In this document: positions 7,214 to 36,100 of the stretch, in pieces | How the letters are laid out: each line of letters opens with the position of its first letter | Numbering within the stretch: the stretch's first letter is position 1 | Origin: Bacillota bacterium | GTDB lineage: Bacteria; Bacillota; Limnochordia; Darwinibacteriales; Darwinibacteriaceae | DNA length: 36,133 nucleotides | Direction: 5' to 3' | Assembly: GCA_012520315.1 (NCBI GenBank) | Contig: JAAYOM010000115.1 | Location: forward strand, 1-36,133 | Translations under genes and position numbers: made by a program | The notes under the pieces: model-generated | Told to the model about the DNA's origin: nothing | Databases searched by the model: none | What the model saw: only the letters and a program-made list of their open reading frames with translations

Positions 7214-7214
7214 G

Positions 7215-7243
7215 TTGACAAGAACTGGGCCCTTGCTTATACT
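7215..7243 (+). promoter_or_regulatory. Sigma-A promoter of the metal-resistance operon
   Basis: TTGACA (7215-7220), 17-nt spacer, TATACT (7238-7243). Confidence 0.8.
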
Positions 7244-7255
7244 ATAATTAAACAC

Positions 7256-7271
7256 ATGAACAGATGTTCAT
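7256..7271 (+). promoter_or_regulatory. ArsR/SmtB-type operator
   Basis: ATGAACA-GA-TGTTCAT, perfect 7-2-7 palindrome between the -10 and the ArsR start; matches the known SmtB/ZiaR/CzrA operator style (TGAACA..TGTTCA). Confidence 0.8.
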
Positions 7272-7294
7272 ATATAGTAGAGAGGGGCGCCGGC

Positions 7295-7663: not shown

Positions 7664-7672
7664 GGTGACACC

Positions 7673-16530: not shown

Positions 16531-17328
16531 TTACCATCTGTCCCAGGAAGGAGTCGGCGGCTGGTAGAGATGTGAATTGTCCTGTAAAGCCAAATTCCTG
16601 CTGTATACTAAGATAGTCGGCCCAGGAACTTCATCCTGGTAATAATTCCAGCGGGCATCATCGCTGTATCTATAAACGCTGAAGGAAAAGACGGACGCGT
16701 CAGTCCGGGGCTGGGGAGCAAACATCGCAAGCAGCATATAAGGTTCAATTTTTTCAACCCTTCGCTGATCCGGAGCATACCTAAAGCCGCCTTCTACATG
16801 GCGAACCTGAATTCGTCCGGTTTCGTCGGGAGCGAGCCCCCGATAATATTCATCAACCATTAAATAGGCATTATGTGTATCTGCTGCAAAAAAACCCAAG
16901 TCCACCTTGACGCTAACCTCTGCTCCAGATCTTACTACATAGGCATTGGGACTGAAGATCCCCTGGGTCTGAACATCTACAGTCGCCGTCCGATCCCAGG
17001 TGCTGACGTGAACTGCCAGCGGTTCGCCCCTCCAGGCGGAACTTAAGGTAAAGGCTTCAATAAGTACTGTACGGGCCGGCAACACCACTGTACGGTCGAG
17101 GAAAAATGGCCTCCAGCGCTGGTCCCAGCCTTCAGAAGCGATGGTCACACTTTTGCGGGATGTGGACTCGTTGGCCAATGCCACCTTCACGATATCCCCT
17201 TCCAACCAGGCGATTACAGCCACATCACCTAAGTAACCGTCGCGCAAAGCAGCCAGGCTAGGGGCGCCCACAGTCAGGACCAGCAGCATTATTACTGCAA
17301 ATGATTGAATCAATGTTCTACGACGCAT
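16531..17328 (-). CDS. Secreted hypothetical protein
   Basis: ORF track start 17343 is TTG; ATG 17328 has SD GGAGGGA. Signal MRRRTLIQSFAVIMLLVLTVGAPSLA; beta-rich sequence; no family recognised. Confidence 0.7.
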   Translation of the reverse strand: MRRRTLIQSFAVIMLLVLTVGAPSLAALRDGYLGDVAVIAWLEGDIVKVALANESTSRKSVTIASEGWDQRWRPFFLDRTVVLPARTVLIEAFTLSSAWRGEPLAVHVSTWDRTATVDVQTQGIFSPNAYVVRSGAEVSVKVDLGFFAADTHNAYLMVDEYYRGLAPDETGRIQVRHVEGGFRYAPDQRRVEKIEPYMLLAMFAPQPRTDASVFSFSVYRYSDDARWNYYQDEVPGPTILVYSRNLALQDNSHLYQPPTPSWDRW

Positions 17329-17452
17329 GCACGTTCCCTCCAATTATCTTTCTGTTACACTTATTCGCCATTTCTCCCCTCGATTTGCCAGTAGTCAAGA
17401 AAAAACCTTACCTTAAGGACAGCGATCTGACCATAGCAAGCTGCAGCACCTG

Positions 17453-18802
17453 TTACCGGCACCGTTCCCGGTCTGAACTCAAGTAGACTTCGAACTGAGA
17501 GATGTAAGGGTTCGCGCGGGCCAGCGTAATTTCTAGTCTGATCGCTTTTGCCTGCACCGGCTCCAGGCGGCAAATTCGCTTGTAGCCTATAGTTGTACCT
17601 TCATAGCATTTCAACCACTCGCCGCTTTGCCTAAAGTAAAGGGTGAACGCTTCAACGCGCTGGCCAAGCTCAATTTCCTCACCTAACACAACCCGGTCCA
17701 GAAGGCGAACTTCCCCTAGATCAAACTCCAGGCACGTCTTAGGCAAAGAGTCTGCAGCTAGATTGTGCCGGAATGTTTCCCTCAGCACCTCGCCTAACTC
17801 CAGCAAGCAATTAAGATCATTTTCATGAATAAGTCCCCGCTGATCCGGAGGCACATTTAGCAGAAAGTTTGCATTGCCCCCCACTGAATTATAATAAATC
17901 TCCAAAAGTTCTTCTAACGGACGCACCTTATCATCTTCCGAGGCGTGGTAAAACCAGCCTGGCCGAATCGAAGTGTTCACTTCTGCCGGATACCAGACCA
18001 GCTCTTCGGCGCCAGCAATCGCTTCTCTGCTGCCCAGATCTTCGTCGGTGGACTTAATGCGGCGGGAAAACTTACCGTCATCAACCTTTTGCGATGCCTC
18101 TTGAATGCGCTCTGCCAGCTGGAGTGCTGCTGGAACCACACTCCATTCTGATTCGCGGCAGTGACCGGCCTCGTTGCCGCACCAGCGCACATCAGGACCC
18201 ACTACAGATATGACCGCCTCCGGCCGCAGCTCCCGAATCAAGGCATAGTACGCCTCCCAATCATATTCCTGCCTCTTGCCGTTTGGACCTTCTCCGCAGG
18301 CGCCATCCAGCCAAACGGAAAAGATGGGTCCGTAACCTGTCAAGAGCTCCCGCAGCTGATTCAGGAAGAACTGATTATAGCGGGAGGAGTCGCCGTAAGA
18401 AGCTTCATGGCGATCCCAGGGCGAGAGATAGATGCCAAAGGCCAGGCCTTCCTTGGCGCAAGCCTCTGCAGCTTCCTTTACCACATCCCCCCTGCCGCCT
18501 TGCCAGGGACTGTTTTTAACACTGTATTCCGTGTAGCGACTGGGCCAGAGACAAAAACCGTCATGATGCTTGCAGGTGAGAATCAGACCCCGCATGCCCG
18601 CGTTTTTAAAGGTTTGAGCCCATTGGCCTGCATCTAAAGCTGCGGGATTAAAGAGTCTGGCCGGCGCCTTGCCGTCACCCCATTCCTGATCCGTAAAGGT
18701 GTTCATGCCAAAATGGATGAAGCCGTAAAACTCCAGCTTCTGCCAGCGCAGCTGGCGCGCTGATGGTCTAACCTTGAGCGCGGCTGTGATCTTGTCTGAC
18801 AT
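17453..18802 (-). CDS. GH29 alpha-L-fucosidase, predicted cytoplasmic
   Basis: 449 aa, no signal peptide; FYGFIHFGMNTFTDQEWGDGK, MRGLILTCKHHDGFCLWPSRYTEYSVKNSPW, FSVWLDGACGEGPNG (putative nucleophile Asp). Confidence 0.92.
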   Translation of the reverse strand: MSDKITAALKVRPSARQLRWQKLEFYGFIHFGMNTFTDQEWGDGKAPARLFNPAALDAGQWAQTFKNAGMRGLILTCKHHDGFCLWPSRYTEYSVKNSPWQGGRGDVVKEAAEACAKEGLAFGIYLSPWDRHEASYGDSSRYNQFFLNQLRELLTGYGPIFSVWLDGACGEGPNGKRQEYDWEAYYALIRELRPEAVISVVGPDVRWCGNEAGHCRESEWSVVPAALQLAERIQEASQKVDDGKFSRRIKSTDEDLGSREAIAGAEELVWYPAEVNTSIRPGWFYHASEDDKVRPLEELLEIYYNSVGGNANFLLNVPPDQRGLIHENDLNCLLELGEVLRETFRHNLAADSLPKTCLEFDLGEVRLLDRVVLGEEIELGQRVEAFTLYFRQSGEWLKCYEGTTIGYKRICRLEPVQAKAIRLEITLARANPYISQFEVYLSSDRERCR

Positions 18803-18893: not shown

Positions 18894-20180
18894 TTACTTG
18901 TTATAGCCAAGCAGCTCATCTACATAGGCCTGACCAGCAGCTGCCACTGCGTTAAACGCCTCGGCACCGGTCTTCTCGCCTAGTACAACGGAGTTGTATG
19001 CATCGATGACCTCAGAAGAAACGAGGGCCCAGTTCAAGTATTCGCCTTCTTGGGCATACTTGGTCAGGATGTCTGCCAGAACACGGGCGCTCTTGGCATT
19101 GGGAGCCCACTCGGAAACCCGTCTGTCTACCCAGCCTTCGGTGGTTGCTCTAATGTCAGGATCCTTAAACAGGAAGTCCACGAGGGCAACCATTGCTTCT
19201 GCATCAGCGGTGTTGGACGGAATTACGAAAGTCTCAAACCAGCCGGTATAGAGGGTGTTCTTGCCTTGAGGTCCCTTGGGAAGGGGCAGGATGCCATAGT
19301 TCACATCGTGGTCGCCTTTGGCAAATCCATCAATTCTCCAGCCTTCTCCAAAGGCGAGGGCAGCGTTGCCCTGCTCAAAGGGGGCCATACCGCTAACCAG
19401 TACCTGGTCTACGTTACGCAATTGGGCGCCGAACTCTACACCTTGGATGATTTTCTCGGAGTTCCAGTTGAACTTGTACTTTCCGTCTTCACCGAGTACA
19501 TAAATGTTGTCTCCGTTGGTGATAGTCAGGAAAGCCCAGATGTACATGTTGGCAATTCCCCATTGGTCATTGGTTCCATCGTTGTCAAAGTCAACTGTGG
19601 TTGCCAGGGCTACTTCACGCATTAAATCCCAGGTCCAGTTGCCGGCCAGATACTCGTCTTCCAGATCAGGCAAGCCTGCGGCTTCGATAATGTCCTTGTT
19701 GAACAGCGTGAAATAAGCAGTCCCGGCGTCAGCAAAGCTTGGAAACTCTGCTACGGCATAGCGATCATCGCCAAGCGTAAAGGTTTCGATCGAGGCGCCG
19801 GCTACATCCAAAGCTTCACCATAATACTCTTCGTCACCAAATGTATCGGTGATGGAAAGCAGAGCACCTTGGGCTGCCAAAGAGAGGAACCAGGGCGGCT
19901 GAGAAGCCATACGCCACACGTCATACTCGCTGTCGCCACTGATCAAGCGGGCCATAAGCGCCTCTTGATAGTTATCTTGGTCTAGAATCACATGTTCGAT
20001 TTTCACATTGAAGAGTTCTTCTGCTTCAGCAAGCCTGCCAGAGGCCTCTGCGTCTTCAAGGTTGTTTACCCAGCCAGTAAATGTGACTGTCTTGCCGCCC
20101 AAGTCATATTGCTGGGCAAAGGCGGGCACAGCTGTAAAGCACAACGCAAGCACAAGAACCAGTATCAAACTCTTTTTCAT
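18894..20180 (-). CDS. Carbohydrate ABC transporter substrate-binding protein, family 1
   Basis: 428 aa; signal ending AFAQQ; EAEELFNVKIEHVILDQDNYQEALMARLISGDSEYDVWRMASQPPWFLSLAAQGALLSIT; PLPKGPQGKNTLYTGWFETFVIPSNTADAEAMVALVDFLF. Confidence 0.9.
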   Translation of the reverse strand: MKKSLILVLVLALCFTAVPAFAQQYDLGGKTVTFTGWVNNLEDAEASGRLAEAEELFNVKIEHVILDQDNYQEALMARLISGDSEYDVWRMASQPPWFLSLAAQGALLSITDTFGDEEYYGEALDVAGASIETFTLGDDRYAVAEFPSFADAGTAYFTLFNKDIIEAAGLPDLEDEYLAGNWTWDLMREVALATTVDFDNDGTNDQWGIANMYIWAFLTITNGDNIYVLGEDGKYKFNWNSEKIIQGVEFGAQLRNVDQVLVSGMAPFEQGNAALAFGEGWRIDGFAKGDHDVNYGILPLPKGPQGKNTLYTGWFETFVIPSNTADAEAMVALVDFLFKDPDIRATTEGWVDRRVSEWAPNAKSARVLADILTKYAQEGEYLNWALVSSEVIDAYNSVVLGEKTGAEAFNAVAAAGQAYVDELLGYNK

Positions 20181-20379: not shown

Positions 20380-21309
20380 CTAACCCACCAAACCGGTCCG
20401 TTCAATACTCTCCACAAAGTACCTTTGCAGGAACGCATACATGACTAATAGGGGTGCAATCATCAGCATGCTGCCTGCGTTAACAATCAGTGAGAAGTAT
20501 TGCACATCGGTCATCTCCAGATAGGCCGCCAGACTTCTTGACAGGTTGCTCAGGGCCACCGGAAGGAAGTTAGAGTCTAGATAGAGCGTTGTGAGGAAAG
20601 AGTCATTCCACTGCCAGACAAAGCCAAATAGGAACACGATGACCATGGCCGGCACCGCACCCGGCAGCATCACTCGGAAGAAGGTGGTTAAAGGACCTGC
20701 CCCGTCCACATAAGCTGCCTCCTCTAAGTTGCGGGGCATGCCGGCAAAGAATTGACGCATGACCAGGATATACAGGCCGTTGCGCAAGCCTGTGCCCGTT
20801 AAAGCTGTAAGCAGGAAAGGCCAATAAGATCCCATCAGGTTCAATCCGCCGCCCTTGAGGAGCCCAAAGAAGTCGAAGAATCTCCAGTTGAGATAGAGCG
20901 GGACCATCATCATCTGCGGCGGGACAATCAAGGTGAAAATGGCGGCAGCCATGATCAGTTTCTTCCCTCTAAACTCAAAGCGGGCTAAGCCGTAGCCAAC
21001 CAGAGTTGTGGATGCCAGCTGCAGAACCGCTACCAAGAAGGACAAAAAGAGGGAGTTGAAAAAGACTTTGGGAAAGTTCATCACCTCAATTGCCAACCGG
21101 TAATTATCTAAAGTGGGGTGTTTCGGAATCCAGTTTACGGTCTGGTCCCCCAGATCACGCAGGGGAGTGAAGGATGAAGAAATCTTGGTCAGCACCGGAA
21201 ACAAAATGATGTAAGAGATCCCTACAATCAACACAAACCGAAACACGCTCAGGGCAAACTGTGATGTTTTGTAAGCCAACGCCTGACGTTTCGCTTTGGA
21301 TAAACGCAT
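20380..21309 (-). CDS. Carbohydrate ABC transporter permease (MalG type), pair 2
   Basis: 309 aa; MRQFFAGMPRNLEEAAYVDGAGPLTTFFRVMLPGAVPAMVIVFLFGFVWQWND EAA loop. Confidence 0.93.
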   Translation of the reverse strand: MRLSKAKRQALAYKTSQFALSVFRFVLIVGISYIILFPVLTKISSSFTPLRDLGDQTVNWIPKHPTLDNYRLAIEVMNFPKVFFNSLFLSFLVAVLQLASTTLVGYGLARFEFRGKKLIMAAAIFTLIVPPQMMMVPLYLNWRFFDFFGLLKGGGLNLMGSYWPFLLTALTGTGLRNGLYILVMRQFFAGMPRNLEEAAYVDGAGPLTTFFRVMLPGAVPAMVIVFLFGFVWQWNDSFLTTLYLDSNFLPVALSNLSRSLAAYLEMTDVQYFSLIVNAGSMLMIAPLLVMYAFLQRYFVESIERTGLVG

Positions 21310-21330: not shown

Positions 21331-22221
21331 CTATTCCTGATAAAATACCCAGCGGGACATGACAGCAACAACAATAGCTAACACAACCGCCACCGCAAAA
21401 AAGTACATGACCCCCATGGCGGTTCCTACGCCAAAGCCTGCTCCGCCAAAGGCGGTACTGCGAATGTAGACAACCAGTTCATTGTTGGCGGCTAAAAACG
21501 AGTCAATGATCGTGTAGATGACATTAGCAAAAATGATCGGACTCATCACAGGCAGGGTAATCATCCAGAATGATTGCCAGCCCGAAGCCCCTTCCACCTC
21601 AGCTGCTTCATAGAGCGAACTGGAAATAGACTGCAGTCCCGCTAAGAAGATCAAAATTTGGATCCCGGAGGCTCGAATCACTTCGGGCACCCGTTCTACA
21701 ACGTCAATCACATAGAGCATCATCTGGGGCGGAATCTTCATTTGCATCAAAAAGTTGGTCAAGGCCGGCCCTGACATAAACCCGCTGAGGGCATTGCCCG
21801 ACTGTTCTAACATAGTGCGCATGTAGTCTGTCTGTTCCAGGCTCAGAACCACCCCGGATCCGAGAATCACCGGCAGGAAAAAGACTGATCTGGCCAAGAG
21901 CCGGCCGCGAAACTTGCTGTTCAGCAACATAGCTGCAAAAAAGGCAAAGAAGATGATGGCCGGCACATCCACAAGCATTCTGAGCAGTGTTTCAGTAAAC
22001 TTGGGCAAGAACTCGGTATCAACCTGGAGAGCGTAGCGAAAATTCTCCCATTTGATGTATTCCAGCTCGTAACCTCCGCTAACAATCACCAGCCTGTTCA
22101 TGCTGAAGATCAGACTTTGGATGAAGGGAGCCAGGAAGAAAAAGATAAACCCGATAATAAACGGTAGTGAGAACAGATAGCCTGTAAGTGCCTTCTGGCG
22201 CCTCAGCGATAGCCTTTTCAC
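21331..22221 (-). CDS. Carbohydrate ABC transporter permease (MalF type), pair 2
   Basis: 296 aa, GTG start overlapping upstream stop (GTGA). SISSSLYEAAEVEGASGWQSFWMITLPVMSPIIFANVIYTIIDSF EAA loop; contains a long loop (TDYMRTMLEQSGNALSGFMSGPALTNFLMQMKIPPQMMLYVIDVVERVPEVIRAS). Confidence 0.9.
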   Translation of the reverse strand: MKRLSLRRQKALTGYLFSLPFIIGFIFFFLAPFIQSLIFSMNRLVIVSGGYELEYIKWENFRYALQVDTEFLPKFTETLLRMLVDVPAIIFFAFFAAMLLNSKFRGRLLARSVFFLPVILGSGVVLSLEQTDYMRTMLEQSGNALSGFMSGPALTNFLMQMKIPPQMMLYVIDVVERVPEVIRASGIQILIFLAGLQSISSSLYEAAEVEGASGWQSFWMITLPVMSPIIFANVIYTIIDSFLAANNELVVYIRSTAFGGAGFGVGTAMGVMYFFAVAVVLAIVVAVMSRWVFYQE

Positions 22222-25007
22222 AGGTCACCACCCCTTTCTACAAGGTAGCCTTCACTTGGTATAACCCTACCCCACTGCCACACCGGTTTGTCCGTGTAAT
22301 TGACCAGCACCTGCAAGCCGTTTTCATACGTGGTCCGATAAACGCCCGGACGTCCCTGGTCGTGTCCGACAATGCCTTGACCCCGCACTTCCTGTAAAAT
22401 GGGTGCCACTTCATGGAAAAACGCAAGGGCGTCGTCCTTTGAATCATAGTAATTGGTTGCCAAGAGATATTCAAAGTCCGTTCCCTTAATTAGGGACGAA
22501 TCCCCAATGCTCCAGCGGAAAAAGGGCAGTTCTCCCCTCTCCAGGCTGCGCAAAAGCTCTTGCCGGGTAATGCCGCCAAAATTGAGGGGCTGACCGGCAT
22601 AGTCTACATAGCCATGGAAGACAATCTGATAAAAGGGAACATTTCTGTCGACGATCAGAAGAGGACTGGCCTCTGTCGGGGCCTCTACAATCTGCCGGGC
22701 ATACGGGGCAGCATAGTCATTTCCGCCTACTACCAGCAAAGAGCGGCCAGCATGCTTCATTTTTTCCAGCTGTTCCACCAAAATGGCCTCCGCCTCAGGG
22801 CGATGTACCATCTTGCTTGCATCATCAATAAAGTCTGAGTAGAGACTTCTCCCTAGTCGGCGCAAGGACAGATTGGCCTGGTCGTAAGGGGCCAGGGAAT
22901 TTAGGAAACGATCTACCAGATTGCCTATGGCCCTTGGTGACACTGCATAAGCCTCCCGGCTGGTGTCCCTTTGGTAGGTGGAAATATTATAATCCCATAT
23001 CTTAACCGCAGAACGGTTGAGAAAGCGTGATGTATCCCTGGACGCCCTAAATGAGTCATACCAGGTGTTCCTATAAACCCTGCTGAAGTCCACATCTAGA
23101 TAGAGCTCTACCGGGTTGTGCCTCGTATATTCGAGAAGAGCCTGGAAATCGGCTTTACTGCCTAGGTCTTTTTCTAAAGAGAACCGATCCGGCACATAGT
23201 GCTCAATGCCCCCCTTAGACCAGCCCACATAGCGCAGTCGTGCGGCCTTGACATCTGAGATCTTAAGATCTTCTAAAATGGTCAAGACATCCGCGTAGGA
23301 GGTCAAAGGCCTGATTACTTCCCGGGGAGCCCCAAAGCTCGGTTCATAATCATGGATACCGCCAATCATCTCAACCACAAGGGGTACAACTTCATCTGCC
23401 TCGATTTTCTGCAGATCATGTTTCGCCACTAAGTAGTCGCGGTAGGTCTTGGCCATGCCCACATAATCAGCCTCTTCACCAGTTAGGAACGTAATGCGCT
23501 GCACGATGTCTCCCTGGAAGGGTTTGACCGCGTAGGCATCAACCATCTTGTTGTCAAGACTTGACTCCACCCCGAACAGGACGATCGAAGCCCGGGGAGT
23601 TAAAGCATAACGTGCATACACTTTGGCAAAGGACTCAGAACGTCCTGCACTCTCCGCATTGATGTAGGCCATAGAAGCCCCTTCTTCGAGGATCGTGAAA
23701 AATGCCCTTTCCCCTTCCACTAGGCCAAAGACAGGGAGGTAAATGGCAGGCCCTTGCGCAATCCGTTCGATCTGCGGCGCGATAGCTGCATCTACACCAT
23801 AGACAGCCCCTGAATAAGCCGGCAGGTTGTTCTTCCTGGGATTGGTCAGTTCAATTAAGGCACCGGAGCGCTCCGGCACAAAGATGTAACCTTCTGAGCT
23901 TTCATGGGCTCCGCCAAAGTAGGGCAGCAGATCAATGGAATAAGGATAAAAAGTTTCCAGCAATCCCTGATCATTTTCGATCTCCCGTGGATATCCAATT
24001 TCCCCAGCCGGAACCTTAACAACCAAGTCTCGCCCATCTAGCTCCACTATGACAGGAACTTTAAAGACTTCCGGGTTAGGCCGGGGCGGATCAATATTGT
24101 GGCGCTGATGCTCTGCCCCGATATCCTGGGGCGTATAGCCCAGTTCCTGGAAGATCCTGGCGAACTCCGGACGGTTGTAAAGCTTGTAGGTCTCATCAAG
24201 GAGTGCATAAAAGGGACCTTTGAACACAAAGTCAAAGTCAGCAGGGGTCAAAAGCCCCCTTCTCTCCACATCTGACCTGTTGTTGGTAATCGTATCTGCC
24301 AAACGCTCGATGAGATGTTTCTTGCGTTCATGGGGTTCGTCATGCAGCCCCATGCGGGTATCCTTCAAATCTCCGCTGAGGATTTCAATTTCCCAGTTTC
24401 CGAAGATAGCGGGCAGATCCAAACCGAAAACAGACACCCGTTCGTAAGGATCAAAGTCCTGCTCAACAAAATTCAACAGGCTGTACGATCCCAAGAGAAT
24501 CTCTTGATCGAAGGGATCCTCAACCCTGGCCACCAGTGCTTCAAAGGTATCTTTGGCAATAAAGATTGGGTAATGGCTGCGCTCTCCCCACTGTCTGCCC
24601 AGGGTAAAATCGAAACGCACCTGTTCTGGGCCGATCGTAACAGTAAACTCTTCATGCAGCACACTGTCGCCATAGGAACTTAGGGTCTTGCCCTCGCGCC
24701 TGGGTGTGAAATAGTTGAGCACCACCAGGGAGCGCATGTTGTTCCGGGCGTTGCCCCGCTTAATCCGCTCCAAGTTAATGTTTTCTGTTGCGCTGTACCA
24801 AACCTCGCCGCTGGCGATATCCTCCACCGCAAACTCCGCGGTTTCTGCCCGTACATACAGCCGCAAAAACTCGTTTTCCAGGGCCAGGCTATAATTCTTA
24901 AGTTCAGCTGCCCATCCCTGGAAAGCTAATGCATGGACAAACAAAAGGCCCAGCACGCTGATGAGCAGTACCTTGTTGTTGAAAAATGATTGTTTCACCA
25001 TAGCCAA
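22218..25007 (-). CDS. Large secreted DUF5696-like protein, putative beta-sandwich plus TIM-barrel glycan-active protein
   Basis: 929 aa; signal LAFQGWAAE; N-terminal beta-rich region; central region with YLDVDFSRVYRN, GRSLYSDFIDDASKMVHRPEAEAILVEQLEKMK; C-terminal TYENGLQVLVNYTDKPVW like C-terminal beta domains of some glycosidases. DUF5696 assignment is from memory of similar loci. Confidence 0.6.
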   Translation of the reverse strand: MAMVKQSFFNNKVLLISVLGLLFVHALAFQGWAAELKNYSLALENEFLRLYVRAETAEFAVEDIASGEVWYSATENINLERIKRGNARNNMRSLVVLNYFTPRREGKTLSSYGDSVLHEEFTVTIGPEQVRFDFTLGRQWGERSHYPIFIAKDTFEALVARVEDPFDQEILLGSYSLLNFVEQDFDPYERVSVFGLDLPAIFGNWEIEILSGDLKDTRMGLHDEPHERKKHLIERLADTITNNRSDVERRGLLTPADFDFVFKGPFYALLDETYKLYNRPEFARIFQELGYTPQDIGAEHQRHNIDPPRPNPEVFKVPVIVELDGRDLVVKVPAGEIGYPREIENDQGLLETFYPYSIDLLPYFGGAHESSEGYIFVPERSGALIELTNPRKNNLPAYSGAVYGVDAAIAPQIERIAQGPAIYLPVFGLVEGERAFFTILEEGASMAYINAESAGRSESFAKVYARYALTPRASIVLFGVESSLDNKMVDAYAVKPFQGDIVQRITFLTGEEADYVGMAKTYRDYLVAKHDLQKIEADEVVPLVVEMIGGIHDYEPSFGAPREVIRPLTSYADVLTILEDLKISDVKAARLRYVGWSKGGIEHYVPDRFSLEKDLGSKADFQALLEYTRHNPVELYLDVDFSRVYRNTWYDSFRASRDTSRFLNRSAVKIWDYNISTYQRDTSREAYAVSPRAIGNLVDRFLNSLAPYDQANLSLRRLGRSLYSDFIDDASKMVHRPEAEAILVEQLEKMKHAGRSLLVVGGNDYAAPYARQIVEAPTEASPLLIVDRNVPFYQIVFHGYVDYAGQPLNFGGITRQELLRSLERGELPFFRWSIGDSSLIKGTDFEYLLATNYYDSKDDALAFFHEVAPILQEVRGQGIVGHDQGRPGVYRTTYENGLQVLVNYTDKPVWQWGRVIPSEGYLVERGGDL

Positions 25008-25012: not shown

Positions 25013-27148
25013 CTAGATACGGAATGTAATCTCAGTATAAAGTGAGTCAATAAACCCAACCAGCTGCGCAATGACATTGAGGAACAGGAGGGCTAAAAAG
25101 ATTACAATACCGATACCCACACCTGTCAAAATACTTGTAAACACGTTCTTGCCCAGCTCATACTGGTGAGTGATCATGGTTCCCATAAAGACCAGCGCCG
25201 CCATCCAAAGTACAGCCAGCGTACTGAAGACATAGTAAAATGCGCCTTCTTCTAAAGTGATGACACGGCTGATTAGAATCAATGGCAGATTGATAATAAT
25301 GATCGGAACCAAAGCATAAGCCGTGGCAATATAGATGTCCTTAAACGTTCCCTTTCCTTCCATCAAACTGGTGAGACCCAAATTTACACCGCACCACAGG
25401 AAGAAGGGAAGCAGGATGGTGGACATTTCCAGGTAAATGTTAAGATCCTTTGCTTCATTGAAGTTAAACAGGAAACCAGTATGCTGCCTAACCAGAATAT
25501 AGGAAAATACTACTCCGGCCAGAATCACCGTTGCTGACAGCACGTTTCCCCGCTTTTCATGTTTCAGATCCCAAAAACCATCGGCTGGTCTGGTAGCCAC
25601 ATGCCAGGCATAAGCGAGGCTTTGGCCGAAAGCCTTCACCTTGTTCTCGCTGACCCTTGTGGCCAGCCCCCGATACTCGCCCGAATTATGCCTGCGGCGT
25701 TTGACCCAGGCAGACAGAACTTTCCCCACAACCACCAGGACTATCAGGCCGCCCATCATGTAGGAAAAGTTTTCATTGATCCACTCCCGCCGATACAGCT
25801 GCAGGGCCTGGGAATACCCCGCCCGATCCTGGCCAAGGCGGTACATCTCCATAGCTCCTGCAAAATCCCCCTGCCTCAAAAGGGAACGGCCGATGCCGCT
25901 GTAGGCTAAGTCCAGGTTGGGATTGCGATACACGACTTCTCGCCACAGATCAGCTGAGCCATGGTAGTCGCCGGACTGATAAAGCGCGATCGCACTGTGA
26001 ATCAGGCTGGCATATTCCGTCGGATCCAAGACTGAGATCAGATTCATCCTCCGATCCAAGACCAGGAGACGCTCGCCAATCGCGGTGATAGCAGAGGGGT
26101 TCCTGAATCCGCCTTTTTCAAAAGAAACACTGCCAAAAGCATAGAGCAGATTGCCATTGTCATCATAGGTGAAAACCCGGCCCCGGGTCAGATCCACAGC
26201 ACTGTATATGCCATGCTCACGAACGACAATGTCCGTAAAGGCTGTGCGTCCAGTGACAGTAGCATGGGGGTTGCCCACCGATTCGATGAAGTCCACATCG
26301 CCTAGCGGGGGAGGAAAGCCCCCCCGTGGTCTGCGCAGAACATCTTCCCCCGAAGGATTGAGGCGCCTGATCAGCTGCCGCACATTGGTCTGGCCCCTGC
26401 TGAGCGTGGTATAGATAAATCCATTTTCATCGATGTCCACATTGCTGTATTCAGTAGGTACAAAGATGATTGATCTTTCCTTTTGAGCTTCCGTCATTAC
26501 GCTGCGCCAGAAGTATTCCCAAGGACTGGGACTTACTCTCGGTGCGCCAATAAACCCGCTAAAGATGCCTTGCTCATCAAATTCCATCAGGCCTTCCAGT
26601 ACGCCTTCGGCAATAACGTACACCCGGCCTACCTTGTCTACCACCAGCTTCATGGGGCGGAAACGAAAATCTTCAGGGATCAGTTCCTGATCCGTAGGAT
26701 TTTCAATCGTACGCTGCAAATCGCCCGCTGCATCGAGGATTACTATGCGGCGATTACCGTAGTCAGCCACATAGAGATCCCCGTCGTCTGTGACAAAAAG
26801 TCCGGTGGGAGTGTTCAAAGCATCCATCTCTTCCCCATTTTGAAAACCGGTGATCACCTTGTCTACCAGCAGCTCTTCATTGAGTACCACAATGCGGTTA
26901 TTGCCGGTATCGGCGATATAAACCTGATTTGTTGAGGAAACAGTCAGATCCTGAGGTTCCCGCAAGGCACCGATGCCTAAATCATGGCCGTAGATCTCAT
27001 AAGCCGCTTCATAGACACTTGGTCCCGGTACAGCCTCGCCATTAATGCTGTAAGTGTAACTTCCCTGTGCCCACAGCTGACCCTGGACTAAAGTAAGGGC
27101 TGTAAACAGCACCATGAAGCATAGTACAACAAATCGATTCAGCTTCAT
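25013..27148 (-). CDS. NHL-repeat beta-propeller / TPR / Yip1-domain membrane protein
   Basis: 711 aa; signal peptide; NHL repeats (LREPQDLTVSSTNQVYIADTGNNRIVVLN, LNTPTGLFVTDDGDLYVADYGNRRIVILD); TPR-like SGDYHGSADLWREVVYRNPNLDLAYSGIGRSLLRQGDFAGAMEMYRLGQ; one TM then multi-TM C-terminus with Yip1-like features. Confidence 0.8.
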   Translation of the reverse strand: MKLNRFVVLCFMVLFTALTLVQGQLWAQGSYTYSINGEAVPGPSVYEAAYEIYGHDLGIGALREPQDLTVSSTNQVYIADTGNNRIVVLNEELLVDKVITGFQNGEEMDALNTPTGLFVTDDGDLYVADYGNRRIVILDAAGDLQRTIENPTDQELIPEDFRFRPMKLVVDKVGRVYVIAEGVLEGLMEFDEQGIFSGFIGAPRVSPSPWEYFWRSVMTEAQKERSIIFVPTEYSNVDIDENGFIYTTLSRGQTNVRQLIRRLNPSGEDVLRRPRGGFPPPLGDVDFIESVGNPHATVTGRTAFTDIVVREHGIYSAVDLTRGRVFTYDDNGNLLYAFGSVSFEKGGFRNPSAITAIGERLLVLDRRMNLISVLDPTEYASLIHSAIALYQSGDYHGSADLWREVVYRNPNLDLAYSGIGRSLLRQGDFAGAMEMYRLGQDRAGYSQALQLYRREWINENFSYMMGGLIVLVVVGKVLSAWVKRRRHNSGEYRGLATRVSENKVKAFGQSLAYAWHVATRPADGFWDLKHEKRGNVLSATVILAGVVFSYILVRQHTGFLFNFNEAKDLNIYLEMSTILLPFFLWCGVNLGLTSLMEGKGTFKDIYIATAYALVPIIIINLPLILISRVITLEEGAFYYVFSTLAVLWMAALVFMGTMITHQYELGKNVFTSILTGVGIGIVIFLALLFLNVIAQLVGFIDSLYTEITFRI

Positions 27149-27170: not shown

Positions 27171-28031
27171 CTACTTGATCCCTGATGTGCCCATCGTATC
27201 GATTACATTGCTCTGGTTGACCACAAAGACAATGATGGGAACAATCATCATGATCACACCAACCGCGGCACCGACACCTGCCCTGGCAATCCCGCCGGCA
27301 ATGATCTGGTTAAGTGCGTAAGGCAGGGTTTTCAGCTGTTCACTGTAAATGAACTGGCCTCCTGTTTCGGCCCAAAGACCTTGGAAGGATAAGATAATCA
27401 GTGTCAGCCAGCCAGGTTTACAGTTGGGCATCACAATCCGCCAGAAGATCTTCCACTCACTGGCCCCTTCAATTCTAGCCGCCTCCAGAAGGGCATCGGG
27501 AATCATCGCCTCAATAAACTGTTTCATTAAGAAGAGACCCAAACTCATGGCCCAGGCCGGCAGGATGATGGCCCAGTAGGTATCCACCAAGCCAAACCGG
27601 GAAACGATGAGGTAGTTGGGAATGTTCGTAACCTCCCGGGCAAACATCAGCGATAGAACCACGATGCCGAAGAAAAAGTTTGAACCGGGAAACTTATGCT
27701 TAGCTAAGGCATAGGCAGCCAGGGAAGCAACGATCACATGGCCTGCAGTGCCGCCAATGGAAATCACAAGTGTGTTCATTACATAGCGTGAAAATGGCAC
27801 CCAGGAATTGGACATCAGGACAAAGAGGTCGAAAAAGTTGTCCAAAGTTGGGTTCCGTGCAAAGAAAACCGGCGGAAACAAGAACAGTTCGTTCAGCGGC
27901 TTAAAGGCATTGGAAACAGCATAAATCAAGGGCAGCACCGAAAAGAGTGCTCCTGCGAACAGAAAGATAAAGATTGCCAGATCACCGCCAAAAGATCGGG
28001 CCGGTTTTTTGTTCCAAAGTCCGACTCTCAT
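27171..28031 (-). CDS. Carbohydrate ABC transporter permease (MalG type), pair 1
   Basis: 286 aa; MKQFIEAMIPDALLEAARIEGASEWKIFWRIVMPNCKPGWLTLIILSFQGLW EAA loop. Confidence 0.92.
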   Translation of the reverse strand: MRVGLWNKKPARSFGGDLAIFIFLFAGALFSVLPLIYAVSNAFKPLNELFLFPPVFFARNPTLDNFFDLFVLMSNSWVPFSRYVMNTLVISIGGTAGHVIVASLAAYALAKHKFPGSNFFFGIVVLSLMFAREVTNIPNYLIVSRFGLVDTYWAIILPAWAMSLGLFLMKQFIEAMIPDALLEAARIEGASEWKIFWRIVMPNCKPGWLTLIILSFQGLWAETGGQFIYSEQLKTLPYALNQIIAGGIARAGVGAAVGVIMMIVPIIVFVVNQSNVIDTMGTSGIK

Positions 28032-28043: not shown

Positions 28044-28997
28044 TTAAGTACCTAATTTATTGAGAAAACGTTGTACCCAGCGCTGCACTCCGACCATTGT
28101 CAAGAAAAGAATAACTGCAATTGCCGAAGCAGTGCCCATTTCAAAACGCACATTGCCGTAGTCAATCAGATGGGCCACAATGGTATGGCCTGCATAGTCT
28201 GTACTGGGGAAACCCACCAGGGGAATGATCTGCGCCGCCGCAGTAAAGGAGCCTGTGATTGACATGATTGCCCCAAACATGAGGTAGCCCCGCATCTGAG
28301 GCAAGGTGATGTAAAACAGTTCCTGCCAGCGATTACGAATGCCATCTACTGCCCCGGCTTCATACAGACTGGAGTCAATGCCCTGAAGACCTGCAATAAA
28401 GGCTAGGAAACTTGTCCCCAGACTCATCCAGAGCACTACGATAATAACAACACCCATCATATACTTAGGATCCGTCAGCCACTGGACAGGTTCTTTGATG
28501 ATTCCCCAGTACAAGAGGAACCCGTTCACATAGCCATAGGCATCCCCGCTGAACATCACAGTCCAAATCATAAACAGAGCTCCAGATATGGAGGGTGCAT
28601 ACAGCATCAGCGTAAAGACGGCCCTGATTTTCGGTCTCAGCTCGTTAATGAACCAGGCATAGAGGAAACTGGCAAAATAACTCAAGGGCCCTGTAATAAT
28701 GGCGAACACAAAGGTATTCTTCACCGCAATCAAAAAGACATCATCTGACAGAAAGAGCCTGAGATAGTTGGCCCAGCCAACAAATTTCGGCGGCTGAATC
28801 ATATTGTAATTCGTAAAGCTAAGGGCGATGGCAACAAAGACAGGTATCACGGTAAAGAGCGTAAAGAGCAGGCCATAAGGGGCGATAAACAGATAGGAGA
28901 TCTTATTGGCCTTAATTTCGCCCCAAAGGCGCCCTAAACGTCCCTCCGGACGGCTTTGCGGTGCACTTGACAAAGGTTTTTCGGCAGCAGTTCGCAT
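28044..28997 (-). CDS. Carbohydrate ABC transporter permease (MalF type), pair 1
   Basis: 317 aa; SYLFIAPYGLLFTLFTVIPVFVAIALSFTNYNMIQPPKFVGWANYLRLF; IDSSLYEAGAVDGIRNRWQELFYITLPQMRGYLMFGAIMSITGSF. Confidence 0.94.
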   Translation of the reverse strand: MRTAAEKPLSSAPQSRPEGRLGRLWGEIKANKISYLFIAPYGLLFTLFTVIPVFVAIALSFTNYNMIQPPKFVGWANYLRLFLSDDVFLIAVKNTFVFAIITGPLSYFASFLYAWFINELRPKIRAVFTLMLYAPSISGALFMIWTVMFSGDAYGYVNGFLLYWGIIKEPVQWLTDPKYMMGVVIIVVLWMSLGTSFLAFIAGLQGIDSSLYEAGAVDGIRNRWQELFYITLPQMRGYLMFGAIMSITGSFTAAAQIIPLVGFPSTDYAGHTIVAHLIDYGNVRFEMGTASAIAVILFLTMVGVQRWVQRFLNKLGT

Positions 28998-29012: not shown

Positions 29013-31988
29013 CTACTCATCGTCTAACCAGTAAAGTCTGCGGTCCTGAGGATCCAATTCTTCATAAGTTGCAGGCAGCTCAAACTCTAAGCGCTTTCTA
29101 GTAATCTCCTCGTTAATCAGGCGATTGTAATCGGACAGAACGTCCCGGGCAGGTTTATGGTTATAAACAACCTGCCTAAAAGCGTTATCCAAGTAGCGCC
29201 CAATCATATAACCCCCGGGTACCTCAGGAATGCCCCTGGTCCAGCGCCACTGGCTGATCAGTTTATCATATTCTTCCACAGACCAGGGCAGTCCGGCTAA
29301 AGCCTCCACATTAGCTGTGGCATAACGGCCCGCCGGTCCAAGGACGCTTTCAATCTGGCGGCCAAACTCAGTTTGCACCTCTGTGCTGGTCCACCACTTC
29401 AAAAACTCCCAAGCCTGGTCAACCATCTCTGAGTTAGCCATGATGACCGAACCGGTTTGGGCCGTACCTGCAGGAGCAGAGCGATCGATGGTGCCATCGG
29501 GCTGAACTGTCCCAGGTACAAGCGTAAAGTTCCATTTTCCCCTCAACTCCGGTGCGAAGACCTGGAGTTCATTGTACAAACTGTAGTTCGCAATCACAAA
29601 GGGCATCTCTCCCATGCGGAAGCGGTTGAGAGCGTTATAATCCAGGGGCAGTTTATAAAGCTCATAGAGCTCGGTCCACCGGCTAAAGGCTTCCACCGCC
29701 GCCTCGTGGTCTAAGTTGGTGGCCAGACCATCTTCAATAAAGAGTTCTTCTCCGCTTTGGTAGAGAAAGCTGAGCAGGGTCAACACGCCGCCGCTCGAAG
29801 CTAGGCTGCCGACTGTGCCACTGACATCACCAATGGCGCCGCTGGCCGCCTTAAGCGGCACCGAATAGGGCAGGCCAAATTCCATGTTTCGCTTTTGCAG
29901 CACGGGAATCACTGCAAATACATCATCCCAGGTGTCAGGAATATCTATACCCAGTTGGGAAAGGACATCACTGCGGTAAAACAGCATCAAAAACGACTGC
30001 TGGTCAGGGAGGGCATAGACATTATCCCTGAAGGTAAAGGGCACCATGGCACTGGACATAAAGCGCTCTTTGACCTCGGGGAAATCTGGAAGCTCAGCCA
30101 GGTTCACAACCCCATCCCTAAAGGCAAAGTTGATAGGCTGGGCTGATGGTACACCCATGGCCACATCCGGGCCCTTCCCTGCCACCGACGCCGGCAGCAG
30201 AACACCCATGCTCACTAGTTCCAGGTTGACCATAATTCCAGTTTGGGGAGTAAATTGGTTTTCAATCATCCGCTTAAGAATCTGGGCTTGGTCACGGCCC
30301 CAGCCGATCCAGACCTTTAACGGCTCCGTCTCTCCAGCATAGACATCCCCCACCATCTGGTAGTTGTGGGTATAAGACGCAGCAAAAGCCCTCGCTTCAT
30401 GGGTAACACGTTCGCTTGCGGAAGCTGCTGCCTTGGGCAGCTCCATCTCTGGTGAGGCCACAATCAGGTAGTCTACAGCCAGCGGCTGATCTCGCACCGT
30501 AAGGAGCCAGGTTCCCAGGGAGCCTAAATTATCCCTAAATTGGGCTAGACGGGTCGGAATGGTATCCGGCCGCTCCGCCAAGGTTTCCAGCTGCCTGGCC
30601 AGATCCCGGAGCAAAACGGTGGCACCGCCCTTCTGCCCGGTATACTCCTCCAAGGCGTCAGCCAGGCCGTTGACGATTTCTGCCTGCTCAACCATGGTTT
30701 CAATCAGTCCCGGGATCCTCTTGGGCAGCTCATAGGTGCGCATCGGATCGGGCGTAGGTGAGGTAATCATAATGATCTGCCGATACAATGAGTTCAGTTC
30801 ATAGACACTTGACTCCACAGTTCGAATGACATCCACTAGATCACCTAAGACAACTTCCATGGTAATGGAATGGGAACCCTCGGTTAAATAGAAGAGATAA
30901 GGCTCCGCGCTGTCTTCAGGGCCCAGCACATTCATCAGATAAGTGGAACTGTAGGGAAAGCGGACTGCGTTCATTTCCTCAAAAGGAACTTCACCGTCGA
31001 TGTAAATGCGGCGGTTGCTGAACCAGCTGCGAATCTGATTCTGCTTGCCCTTAATGGCTATTTTGTACAATCCGTCCTCTGGAACTTCAAAGTCCCAGCG
31101 CACCCATTGTCCGACCTTACTCCAGCTGTCTCCGCCGATCATATTCAGACGGATCAAGGCGGGATGATAGGGTTCCATAGTAGGATCGCCCTGGTCAAAG
31201 AGGGGTGAAATAGTAGATTCAGACCGATAGGAAGAATCCCGCTCCTGAAGTTTAACAAATACGTTTGCCGCCTCCCGGAAGCCCTGCTCCTGGTAAGAGG
31301 CACTAAGCTCCGCGTAAGCAGGAGGTTCTTCGGCTCTGAAAAAACGTAAAGCATAGACCTGCATCGCTTCTCGCCTAGATACCAACGTAACTGTATTTAC
31401 TCCCTCTTCAAGGTAAAAGCGGTAAGGTTCTTTATAATTGCCCATGGAATCAGAGACCAATTTCGCCTGCCACATAAAGACTTCCCTCTGCAGCGGACGA
31501 AGTTCATTGCCCTGGTTATCCATCTGGATTGGCTCCGCATCTTGCCAGACCCGGGGAAAAACCAGATACTGCGAACCCTCAAAGGGTATCTCAGCATTGA
31601 TTTCCACAGAACGCTCTATGGAAATCCCCCTTCCCGGCACAGGCATATACTCAATCTCCAGATTGTAAAAACCCGCCTCTGGTGCCCGAATCAGCCAAAC
31701 CATACTGCCCACTTCCTCAGTGAGCACCGCATAGTCATCCTTTTCAGGGGCGTAGATGAGCTCCCCAGCCATATCGGTGAGTACGAAATCTTTACCGTAA
31801 ACTACCACCTCAGCCCCGCTGGACACATTCTGAGCACCTCTTGCTTGATACTGGGCAACATAACTCTGGTAGTCAATTATCTCCACAAACTCCCCCTGGG
31901 CATAAGCTGTTTCCACAAACCAGCCGGCCAACATGGCAACAGCCAAGACCAGCAGCATTATATTTTTGGTCGTGACAAATCTACGCAC
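29013..31988 (-). CDS. Extracellular solute-binding protein with ~550-aa N-terminal extension containing two CBM-like beta-sandwich modules
   Basis: 991 aa; signal VETAYAQ; modules PEAGFYNLEIEYMPVPGRGISIERSVEINAEIPFEGS and RWDFEVPEDGLYKIAIKGKQNQIRSWFSNRRIYIDGEVPFEEMN; family-1 SBP from about PLKVWIGWGRDQAQILKRMIENQFTPQTGIMVNLELV to the C-terminus. Confidence 0.88.
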   Translation of the reverse strand: MRRFVTTKNIMLLVLAVAMLAGWFVETAYAQGEFVEIIDYQSYVAQYQARGAQNVSSGAEVVVYGKDFVLTDMAGELIYAPEKDDYAVLTEEVGSMVWLIRAPEAGFYNLEIEYMPVPGRGISIERSVEINAEIPFEGSQYLVFPRVWQDAEPIQMDNQGNELRPLQREVFMWQAKLVSDSMGNYKEPYRFYLEEGVNTVTLVSRREAMQVYALRFFRAEEPPAYAELSASYQEQGFREAANVFVKLQERDSSYRSESTISPLFDQGDPTMEPYHPALIRLNMIGGDSWSKVGQWVRWDFEVPEDGLYKIAIKGKQNQIRSWFSNRRIYIDGEVPFEEMNAVRFPYSSTYLMNVLGPEDSAEPYLFYLTEGSHSITMEVVLGDLVDVIRTVESSVYELNSLYRQIIMITSPTPDPMRTYELPKRIPGLIETMVEQAEIVNGLADALEEYTGQKGGATVLLRDLARQLETLAERPDTIPTRLAQFRDNLGSLGTWLLTVRDQPLAVDYLIVASPEMELPKAAASASERVTHEARAFAASYTHNYQMVGDVYAGETEPLKVWIGWGRDQAQILKRMIENQFTPQTGIMVNLELVSMGVLLPASVAGKGPDVAMGVPSAQPINFAFRDGVVNLAELPDFPEVKERFMSSAMVPFTFRDNVYALPDQQSFLMLFYRSDVLSQLGIDIPDTWDDVFAVIPVLQKRNMEFGLPYSVPLKAASGAIGDVSGTVGSLASSGGVLTLLSFLYQSGEELFIEDGLATNLDHEAAVEAFSRWTELYELYKLPLDYNALNRFRMGEMPFVIANYSLYNELQVFAPELRGKWNFTLVPGTVQPDGTIDRSAPAGTAQTGSVIMANSEMVDQAWEFLKWWTSTEVQTEFGRQIESVLGPAGRYATANVEALAGLPWSVEEYDKLISQWRWTRGIPEVPGGYMIGRYLDNAFRQVVYNHKPARDVLSDYNRLINEEITRKRLEFELPATYEELDPQDRRLYWLDDE

Positions 31989-32003: not shown

Positions 32004-33092
32004 TTATGCTAACTTCTGACACGAATTACCCGCCATAAGTGCGGTGGGCAGATAGAGCTGAGTTAAGGGCAGCAGCTGATCATCCCCGTTTTCAATCAGG
32101 TACAGCAGCAGTTCCACAGCCTTCTCGCCCATAAGTTCAGAATGTTGATTGACGGTGGTAAGTGAGACATCAAGCATCCTCACCATTTTCAAATCGTCAA
32201 AACTGACGATGGAAAGGTCTTTTGGAATAGACAGCTTCAGATCACGGCAGGCGGTGATCAAACTGGCGGCTACAGTGGCGTTGCCAGCTACTACAGCCGT
32301 ATACTCCTGCATCTGCAAAAATGCCTTGAGTTCTTCGACCCCTTTCTGATGGTCAAAGGCGTAGGAGTCCCCGCCTGAAACGTCATGTTCCCGAAACGCT
32401 TCTTTAAAACCCCTTAAGCGCTGGCGGATACTGCTGGAAGTGTCTATCTGATGATATAAGAAGCAAATCTTTCTATGACCGAGGTCCAAAAGATGTCGGG
32501 CCGCCTGATTGCCGCCTTGCTGGTTGTCGGAAACTACACAATTTGCCTGAAAAGCCTCAATGGTCCGATCAACCATCACAAAGGGAAAGCCATCACGCTT
32601 TAAGGGGAGGGCTGACATGCCTGCCCCCTTGTCATGGGAGGGCATTAGAATCAAACCGGCCACCCCCTCTGACGTGAGCAGGGAGACTGCCTCCGCTTCT
32701 TTGGCGCTGTCATTATGGGAAGTATAAAGCATCATGGTATACGGCGTGCGACGCAAAGCTCTCTGCATGCCGCAGAGAATCATCATCTCAATCTCCGCTT
32801 CCACAAAGGGCATCACAATCCCAATAGCATCCAGCCTCTTGTGATTATTGTTCCTCTCCCTAATATAGGTGCCGCTTCCCTGCACTCGATAGAGAACTCC
32901 CTCGTCTACCAGCTCCTGCAGCGCTCGCCGGGCGGTATAACGGCTGACATTCAATTTTTCGGCCAACTCCCGTTCCGGGGGGATCTTTTCCCCCGGAACA
33001 AGGACACCCTCTTCGATCTGGTTCAAGATGTAATCTCGCACCTGCAGATATAACATGCGGCGTTCATGAAATTCAGTTGGGTTGCCTGCCAT
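32004..33092 (-). CDS. GntR-type winged-helix / LacI-type ligand-binding transcriptional regulator (AraR-like architecture)
   Basis: ORF track start 33101 is GTG; ATG at 33092 has better SD spacing. QVRDYILNQIEEGVLVPGEKIPPERELAEKLNVSRYTARRALQELVDEGVLYRVQGSGTYI then LacI/PBP domain (AIGIVMPFVEAEIEMMILCGMQRAL..., SIVSFDDLKMVRMLDVSLTTVNQ). Confidence 0.93.
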   Translation of the reverse strand: MAGNPTEFHERRMLYLQVRDYILNQIEEGVLVPGEKIPPERELAEKLNVSRYTARRALQELVDEGVLYRVQGSGTYIRERNNNHKRLDAIGIVMPFVEAEIEMMILCGMQRALRRTPYTMMLYTSHNDSAKEAEAVSLLTSEGVAGLILMPSHDKGAGMSALPLKRDGFPFVMVDRTIEAFQANCVVSDNQQGGNQAARHLLDLGHRKICFLYHQIDTSSSIRQRLRGFKEAFREHDVSGGDSYAFDHQKGVEELKAFLQMQEYTAVVAGNATVAASLITACRDLKLSIPKDLSIVSFDDLKMVRMLDVSLTTVNQHSELMGEKAVELLLYLIENGDDQLLPLTQLYLPTALMAGNSCQKLA

Positions 33093-33112
33093 CTCTTGCA
33101 CCTCTTCCAGAA

Positions 33113-36100
33113 CTACATTATCTTGAAAGTCCTAATCTCATAAGGGTTAAGGGTAAATGTGAAACGGTCAGACTCAAATTCTACATCTGTATCTTCCTGC
33201 TCCATTAAGTTGCATTCCCTGACAGCCTGAAGTCCATGGGGGAATGTAACTGTTACAGTATCTCTGCGATTGCCGAACTCATAGAAACGCAACACGAGTT
33301 CGCTGCCGTCTTCGGCCTTTTTCACAGTATCTAAAATGGTGCTCTCCCCTTCCACCTGCAGCAGCTGGCCCTTGGGCTCCAAGCCGCCATGGGAAACGGA
33401 ACTGATAATACCCCGCAGCGGATAGTTAAGCTCATGGGCTGCCTGGGTTGTTCCGCCCTCATACCAGTCGCCCTGGTGAGGAAGGAGGCTGTAGGTAAAC
33501 TCATGATGTCCCTGATCCGCTACTGGATCCGGATCAATACCAGACTTCAGCAAGGTGAGGCGAATTACATTGTCCTTAATGTCGTGGCCGTACTTGCAGT
33601 CATTGAGCAGACTTACACCATAGTCACGTTCAGACAGATCTACCCACTTCTGGGCCACTGTTTCGAACTTAGCCCAGTCCCAGCTGGTGTTATAGTGGGT
33701 AGGGCGTTCAACGTTGCCGAATTGAATCTCATAGGTTGCCTTGGTGTTACGCACTGCCACGGGGAAAGCAGCCTTGAGCAAGATAGAATGCTCGTTCCAA
33801 TCTGCCTCTGTGGCAAAGTCAATCGCCCTGCTGTAGGCGGAAACTGAGACCCTTTGCCTAATGGTGGAGTCAAGGAACTTCCATTCCAGGCCGAGCACAA
33901 CACGATCCGGACCGTCTTCTAAAACCTCCCACTTGGTCAGCTCATCTACCGGATATTGCTTCTCCTGGTAATAGAGGTCAATATCCCAGCAGTCGAAGTT
34001 CATGGGCCGATCCTCAAAGGCTTGCAGTTCGTTGGCCAGGCTGCCTGCGGGCACAACTTCCCGCTCGGCACCTTTATCATAGAGGGATGTAATCTGTCCC
34101 TTTTCATTAAAGGTAATTTTGTAATACGGCGAGTCAATCACTCGTCCTGAGATTGTGACTTCACCTAGCGGTGCTTGAGTTTCACCGGCATCTGCTTCCC
34201 GTACCACAAAGGTCTGATAGCCTAGGGCAGGGATCTCAGGCACTCTGATCTCTAATTGCTTCTTGCCAAAGCAGTCCACGATTTTGCTAGGCAGTCTCTC
34301 GCCTGCGGCGGTCCAAAAGCCCATACCCTCCAGTTCCTTGCTCCAGGGAAGTGTGACTACGCCGCCCCGATCCCAGGAGAGGGAGTTGAAGACCACAAGT
34401 TTCTGTCCGTCCAGATCTACAGCATCAGCCAGCAGCTGCAGGGCATCCTGTTCATGTTTTTCAGCGGAAGCGAAGAGCTGGGCAAACTCCTCTGCAGCAT
34501 CTTCGTAGACTTCTGTGATGGACGAACCTGGCAGAATATCATGGAACTGATTGCGCAGCAGGATTTTCCAGTTTTCATTAATTTCGTCCTGGGGATAGCT
34601 GTGTTCCTGGAGTTTAGCCTGTGCCAGGCTGTGCAGGAACTCTACATCATGGAGAATCACTTCGCCCTTGCGATTGTCCCTTTTAATCTTGCCTTGGGAG
34701 GTATAGGTTCCCCGGTGGTATTCTAGATAAAGCTCTCCGTCCACTACAGGCAGGCGCCTTTCCCCCTTGACCCTGGCGCCCAGGCGCTCAAAGTAAGGTT
34801 CTACCTTGCCAAACTCGATCTTGGGAATCCCAGGCAGCTCCTGCATGCGCCGGCCCATTTCGATCATTTCCTTGGTCGGCCCGCCGCCGCCGTCTCCCCA
34901 GCCGTAGGCAATGAGGAGCTCATCGTTGATCTCTTTTTGCTGATAATGCTCCCAGCTGCGCTGGGCAGTGGCTGGATTTAAGATCCCGTTGTACGTGTAA
35001 TATCTGGGTTTTTCTGATTCAGTGGCAGTGATAAAGTGGGTCAGTATCTCGGTTCCATCAAGTCCCCGCCACATAAATGTATCGTAGGTAGGACGGTTGT
35101 ACTGGCTCCAGCTGATCTTGGTAGTCATAAAGTACTTCATGCCGCTCTTGTCTAGAATCTGGGGTAATGCCCAGGAATAGCCGAATACGTCGGGCAGCCA
35201 AAGAACACTGCACTCTACATCAAACTCTTCTTTCATAAAGCGGGTGCCAAAGAGAAACTGGCGCACTAAGGACTCGCCGGAAGGCACGTTGCAGTCAGAC
35301 TCCACCCACATGCCGCCGGTCACTTCCCACTTGCCGGCTTTGATATTTTCCTTGATTTCCTCATAAATGGCCGGATAATCTTCTTTAATGTAGTCATAGA
35401 GCTGAGGCTGGCTTTGGATAAACTGATACTCAGGATACTGCTTCATCAGGTGATTTACAGTCGAGAAGGTTCGCGAGCTCTTCTCCCTGGTGTGTTTCAG
35501 CTGCCAGAGCCAGGCAACGTCGATGTGAGAATGGCCAACTGCGGTAATCGCCGGTCTATGGCCGCTCTTGGACTGATAGTCAGACAGCCGCTGCCGCAAA
35601 GAGTTATTGGCCTCTTCGATAGACTGATAAAAAGCTGGTGTCCCAGGCTTGCGGAAATCAACGGCGTTCAATGCGTCATTTAGGAATGTAACCAGGTTCT
35701 CCCGATCAAAGTCTCCTTCAGGCAGAACCTTAATGGTTTCTTGCATTGCCAATGTCCTGAAATAGAAGTCTTCGGCCGCCACATTGATCTTCACCAAAGA
35801 AGCTGCTGCGAAGCGGCGCTGTACATCCTGGAGGCCGCTAAAGGCCTTGAGGGCGACCTGAATCTTACCCCGATCTTTCCACTCTGGAAGTACGTGAATT
35901 TCATGGTGATTAACGTCCAAACCCTGAGCAGCTGCACCATCGATATAGGCAAGGGTCTCAGAACCAGACAAACCGCCATACTGGCCAGAGCTGGGCGTGA
36001 AGAAAAGTGCTACTTTGTCATCTTTCCACTCCGCCGGGATTTCCACCTCACAGCGGAACCAATGGGTCTGGTCTTTGCCTCCCCACAAACTGCCTACGGT

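Follow-up and report, generated by a model that had tools for sequence, protein, structure and literature searches.

Tethering of an NHL beta-propeller on the outside of the cell is known from PknD of Mycobacterium tuberculosis, in which an extracytoplasmic propeller is joined through a transmembrane (TM) helix to a Ser/Thr kinase. Capture of glycans by modules present in many genomic copies is likewise familiar from SusC/SusD of Bacteroidota, which rely on a TonB-dependent outer-membrane pore. Among Yip1-family membrane proteins, YknW has been found to modulate the assembly of the Bacillus ABC transporter YknXYZ (PMC4887032, PMC4338810), which contradicts the view, taken in an earlier note on the DNA considered here, that bacterial Yip1 domains are without a clear role. 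A TPR protein, the trimeric lipoprotein TatT, binds the solute-binding protein (SBP) of its TRAP transporter (TPAT; PMC5812351). Open-access full texts, examined for DUF5696 and for Yip1 or NHL domains associated with ABC transporters, were found to contain no description of DUF5696 or of the gene module presented below, a widespread sugar-import gene set in Bacillota that has apparently gone undescribed.

The window, meaning the whole analysed stretch of 36,133 nucleotides, carries on its minus strand a gene at 25013..27148 encoding a 711-aa NHL-TPR-TM-Yip1 protein (P0001), as indicated by its open reading frame, Pfam matches, an AlphaFold model and a ribosome-binding site, GGGAGGT, ahead of the start ATG at 27148. 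The plus strand reading of the same interval is interrupted by stops, and promoter and terminator scans gave results at or under chance level. These limits had been given exactly in the earlier note, and the signal peptide, NHL repeats, TM helix, basic segment and multi-TM C-terminus that it had read from the translation are borne out by Pfam, hydropathy and the AlphaFold model (pLDDT 87.7, pTM 0.78). A hydrophobic N-terminus, modelled as a helix at residues 2-19, marks a predicted signal peptide (residues 1-28; 27065..27148, minus strand, as for all features below). It is followed by the NHL beta-propeller, which is present in the predicted structure at residues 30-376 (26021..27061), as had been anticipated, and which scores 57.4 bits against a cut-off of 20 with Pfam NHL (PF01436). 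Foldseek aligned this propeller with those of TRIM71 and Thin (E 1e-17, target-normalised TM-score ~0.77), and a family profile of 67 relatives matched both PDB NHL propellers and consensus TPR proteins. Within the propeller, a helical insertion (YFWR..MTEAQKER...; residues 206-231, window 26456-26533) contains the near-invariant W214 and Q222 and is a candidate docking surface.

The TPR-like stretch suggested earlier (residues 378-438; 25835..26017) stands in part: the model contains helical pairs directly after the propeller and consensus TPR proteins are matched by family profile A1 at residues 384-437, but the Pfam TPR models at 386-441 remain under their cut-offs (TPR_16 21.7 against 32.7 bits, TPR_2 21.3 against 27). 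A single unbroken helix at residues 442-488 (25685..25825) then leads in the model from the TPR part through a stalk into the first TM segment, which hydropathy places at 460-484. Beyond it the model has a cytoplasmic stretch at about 489-535, of which residues 490-496 are of low confidence, and five more membrane helices that make up the Yip1 part. The Yip1 domain (residues 515-686; 25091..25606; Pfam 47-51 bits) matches PF04893 over these residues with 47.3 bits against a cut-off of 28.6, in agreement with the assignment first made for the C-terminal TM region.

The operon runs along the minus strand and comprises, in the direction of transcription, a GH38 alpha-mannosidase (33113..36088), a GntR-HTH/LacI-type sensor regulator (32004..33101), a large SBP of 991 aa (29013..31988), permeases B1 (28044..28997) and B2 (MalG/UgpE type; 27171..28031) and the NHL-Yip1 gene. 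It continues with a secreted DUF5696 protein (22218..25007), permeases A1 (21331..22221) and A2 (MalG type; 20380..21309), an ordinary sugar SBP (18894..20180) and an alpha-L-fucosidase family protein (17453..18802). Pfam identified the mannosidase, the regulator, the fucosidase family protein (Alpha_L_fucos), permease A2, permeases B1 and B2 (BPD_transp_1) and both SBPs (SBP_bac_8, at residues 579-879 in the large one); permease A1 scored 25 bits with BPD_transp_1, slightly under the cut-off. The canonical EAA motif is present in permeases A1, A2 and B2, and B1 is unmatched by the pattern. No ABC ATPase gene occurs in the window cluster or in a second cluster of the same genome, and none of ~80 modules contains an ORF with Walker A and signature motifs; TOBE_2-type and other ABC ATPases are encoded elsewhere in the same genome. 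In the large SBP, the C-terminal sugar-SBP domain matches 5ysb and the N-terminal ~540 residues matched no Pfam family; the family profile of this protein, at its positions 291-388, also finds a segment of a cycloisomaltooligosaccharide glucanotransferase (5x7g). Other genes of the window include a 270-aa secreted-looking protein without Pfam match 3' of the fucosidase (16531-17343), a metal-resistance pair of ordinary type, made up of a heavy-metal P-type ATPase preceded by an ArsR-like regulator (7157-9766), and a weakly Peripla_BP_2-like secreted protein followed by a LysM-repeat-looking one (4674-6268).

A scan of GTDB genomes gave 365 related stretches, of which 80, titled Bacillota or Clostridia-type, were kept (best-segment identity 33-73%, the genome's own record excepted). 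A chance or artefactual origin of the P0001 reading frame is ruled out by these stretches, the profile scores and the ribosome-binding site. Gene order was read in 79 relatives with profiles built for the module genes, and nearly all loci have the arrangement large SBP, two permeases, NHL/Yip1, DUF5696, two permeases and SBP, without an ATPase. DUF5696 is the gene directly after NHL-Yip1 in 77/77 testable loci, mostly at a distance of 40 bases or less; permease A1 lies downstream in 64 of 65. Permease B2 is immediately upstream in 62/74, so the proposed placement between ABC permeases is common but not invariant, the invariant neighbour being DUF5696. In five loci (L007, L012, L019, L032 and L036) NHL-Yip1 lies ahead of both permease pairs, so that a place between permeases cannot be what defines its context, and in seven loci, each with more than 1 kb of upstream sequence, NHL-Yip1 and DUF5696 are present but the sequence retrieved contains no large SBP. 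Taken together, these exceptions identify NHL-Yip1 and DUF5696 as the strict pair.

The same association has been detected across genomes. A set of 250 Bacillota genomes gave NHL-Yip1 in 21, DUF5696 in 20 and both in 20 (Fisher 1e-28, a value that ignores kinship, though the 20 genomes come from several families); the match in the twenty-first covers 200 residues on a contig of 8.5 kb. The 20 genomes with both also encode the N-terminal half of the large SBP, which was further found in two genomes on short contigs and, weakly, in one other family. The two short-contig genomes, considered as cases of a large SBP without NHL-Yip1, were dropped as uninformative because their contigs are too short (G104 and G155, 3.8 and 4.3 kb). 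The link to an ABC transporter made in the earlier note is thus upheld well beyond the window by synteny and co-occurrence, and also by the gene fission and fusion described below. A second complete module with the same core order occurs in the same genome (L091:1071-16970, contig C124), comprising a LacI-type regulator, the large SBP, four permeases, NHL-Yip1, DUF5696 and the ordinary SBP, and in addition a secreted protein of 655 aa that has no Pfam match. Copy number reaches ~10 in one genome (G062) and ~8 in another (G040), as counted in ORFs of ~700 aa; both genomes are of ~2.2-2.4 Mb, and so many copies of a single transporter module are unusual. Glycoside hydrolases near the modules belong to GH38, GH76, GH125, GH3, GH10, GH67 and GH9, and since these include alpha-mannan-type enzymes (GH38, GH76, GH125) but also GH10, GH67 and GH9, the substrate probably differs from module to module.

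For the constant neighbour DUF5696, a family of unknown function recognised here by Pfam (561 bits), modelling and synteny, a glycosidase fold of GH129/GH101 type is predicted. Its AlphaFold model (pLDDT 90.9) was matched by Foldseek to DagB (5opq, E 1e-30), NagBb (5wzn, E 7e-25) and GH101 enzymes, and sequence profiles gave a weak match to GH129. DagB and NagBb have one catalytic Asp in common, Asp486 and Asp435 respectively (PMC5698469). The candidate counterpart, D725, whose equivalence to Asp435 is judged from its position in the barrel, is Asp in 52/61 members and Asn in the other 9; catalysis by DUF5696 is therefore possible, and may have been lost in some members.

A lipobox was detected in 0/30, 2/23 and 0/6 large SBPs of the three groups examined, and in 2/39, 2/20 and 1/6 DUF5696 proteins; neither a C-terminal TM segment nor an LPXTG motif occurs in the sequences of either protein that were checked. 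In Paenibacillus, a lipobox in 5/5 cases marks the ordinary SBP as a lipoprotein. Permeases and lipoprotein SBP aside, NHL-Yip1 alone among the module proteins combines an outside domain with a membrane anchor. Relatives include monoderms such as Paenibacillus, and because monoderms must retain the large SBP and DUF5696 at the cell, NHL-Yip1 is proposed as their holder. The host itself is probably a diderm member of Bacillota, since its genome encodes an Omp85 homologue (G000:C100:27278-28171, E 8e-57), and the retention argument is therefore weaker there, as soluble proteins would stay in the periplasm in any case. The description of the propeller as periplasmic is accordingly acceptable for this host, but not for its monoderm relatives.

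What computation shows is the domains and fold of the protein, its operon, the synteny across the family, the co-occurrence, the repeated fission and fusion and the lack of an ATPase gene. The reading favoured here, with a probability somewhat better than even, is that NHL-Yip1 is a membrane-anchored scaffold that serves a glycan ABC importer as a dedicated accessory subunit. The Yip1 bundle would lie in the membrane beside the importer permeases and aid their assembly or stabilisation, while the propeller and TPR part, raised on a stalk helix continuing into the membrane, would form a docking platform on the outside. This platform would retain at the transporter two proteins otherwise without an anchor, the large SBP and DUF5696 with its predicted glycosidase fold, so that glycans would be captured, perhaps trimmed, and then handed to the permeases, with ATP supplied in trans, presumably by a shared sugar-type ATPase. 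The DGFWDLKHEKRG motif may engage a partner on the cytoplasmic side. NHL-Yip1 may do more than dock the large SBP, because seven loci have NHL-Yip1 and DUF5696 with no large SBP seen. Gene adjacency is also compatible with an independent function in the same regulon, uncleaved signal peptides might themselves serve as anchors, and the known assistance by a Yip1 protein is given to an exporter, not an importer.

Evidence that the two halves of NHL-Yip1 belong to one machine comes from 12 loci in which neighbouring genes encode them separately, one for NHL-TPR-TM (~500 aa) and one for Yip1 (~210 aa); these genes share 4-26 bases, abut, or are separated by 3-4 bases. An assembly error behind these split genes is unlikely, given 12 loci in several lineages with the same domain border and short overlaps or gaps. 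Six changes between split and fused states were counted on a FastTree tree, at least four of them forced by well-supported branches, and such repeated fission and fusion is a classic sign that the NHL-TPR-TM and Yip1 parts work in one complex. The Yip1 form of the module is also set apart by sequence from other Bacillota Yip1 proteins: the family profile scores 122-300 bits with module Yip1 parts and at most 25.5 with the others, a comparison that leaves out YknW itself. That the Yip1 part is a plain YknW-like assembly factor for the permeases, with an unrelated or minor role for the propeller, is an unlikely alternative, which draws on the YknW precedent (PMC4887032, PMC4338810), on the demanding assembly of four permeases per module and on the existence of Yip1 as a stand-alone gene in some lineages. 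A dispensable propeller, however, should have been lost in some lineages, whereas the NHL-TPR-TM part adjoins Yip1 in the loci seen, even where the genes are split, and the propeller blade motifs are kept across the 67 relatives.

The most strongly conserved stretch of the protein is predicted to face the cytoplasm. The DGFWDLKHEKRG motif (residues 523-534; 25547..25582) comprises the best-conserved 12 residues of the protein, with a mean top-residue frequency of 0.99 in the 67 relatives, and its FWDLK-E pattern is present in 104/119 sequences of the family, a set that counts duplicates, fragments and distant members, and in 0/9 weakly matching generic Yip1 proteins. The positive-inside rule and the helix count suggest that the basic linker, the DGFWDLKHEKRG block and the MEGKGTFKD loop all face the cytoplasm. 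These features give some substance to a sensor, in which the propeller would bind extracellular glycan or loaded SBP and the continuous helix would signal to the cytoplasmic motif, gating the transporter or a cytoplasmic partner; an outside NHL propeller on a membrane tether has its parallel in mycobacterial PknD, whose propeller (1rwi) is among the sequence-profile matches of the family. This is nevertheless quite improbable, as an output domain is absent, the cytoplasmic part being limited to ~45 residues and short loops, an intracellular sugar-type regulator is already encoded in the operon, the first TM segment and basic linker are poorly conserved in the 67 relatives, which is odd for a signal relay, and the NHL and Yip1 halves are separable as two genes. 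Of the two roles offered in the earlier note, scaffold or sensor, the scaffold is favoured. An enzymatic role of the propeller on the imported glycan is very improbable, for although propeller lyases have the same fold and virginiamycin B lyase (2z2o) is among the Foldseek matches, the top matches are binding-type NHL propellers, and Gly, Pro, Tyr, Asp and Arg of the blade motifs account for most of the invariant propeller residues, among which His and Glu do not occur.

The scaffold reading can be widened to the whole module, which is tentatively seen, with rather less than an even chance, as an undescribed class of glycan-uptake machine of Bacillota, in which a propeller-TPR-Yip1 hub brings together two permease pairs, a ~1000-aa SBP and a glycosidase-fold partner, and which has been duplicated for different glycans. 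If this is true, the bacterial Yip1 domain would gain a defined role as an importer hub; it is in any case placed in a constant and testable genetic context, within a widespread group that has cultured members including Paenibacillus. The textbook scheme of SBP, permeases and ATPase has no hub subunits, and the module suggests that sugar ABC importers may have dedicated ones. DUF5696 gains a predicted glycosidase-like fold, and the genomes with many copies suggest that the module is a main glycan-uptake route in some anaerobes.

When compared to known systems, NHL-Yip1 shares with PknD a TM-tethered NHL propeller on the outside, but lacks the kinase. The resemblance to SusC/SusD concerns multi-copy glycan-capture modules and is one of analogy, homology not being expected, as the module uses ABC permeases in the cytoplasmic membrane. 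CUT1 importers of the MalFG/UgpAE type also have an SBP and permease pairs with EAA motifs, and the ATPase probably acts in trans; unlike them, the module has two permease pairs, an SBP of ~1000 aa without lipobox and a constant DUF5696 and NHL-Yip1. With TatT it would have in common a TPR-like part that docks an SBP of the transporter, but TPAT belongs to another transporter class and neither a propeller nor a Yip1 domain is described for TatT in that paper (PMC5812351). As with YknW, a Yip1-family membrane protein is encoded together with an ABC transporter; YknW, however, serves a MacAB-like exporter, whereas the partners of NHL-Yip1 form a sugar importer, and NHL-Yip1 carries in addition a propeller/TPR ectodomain and the family-specific DGFWDLKHEKRG motif.
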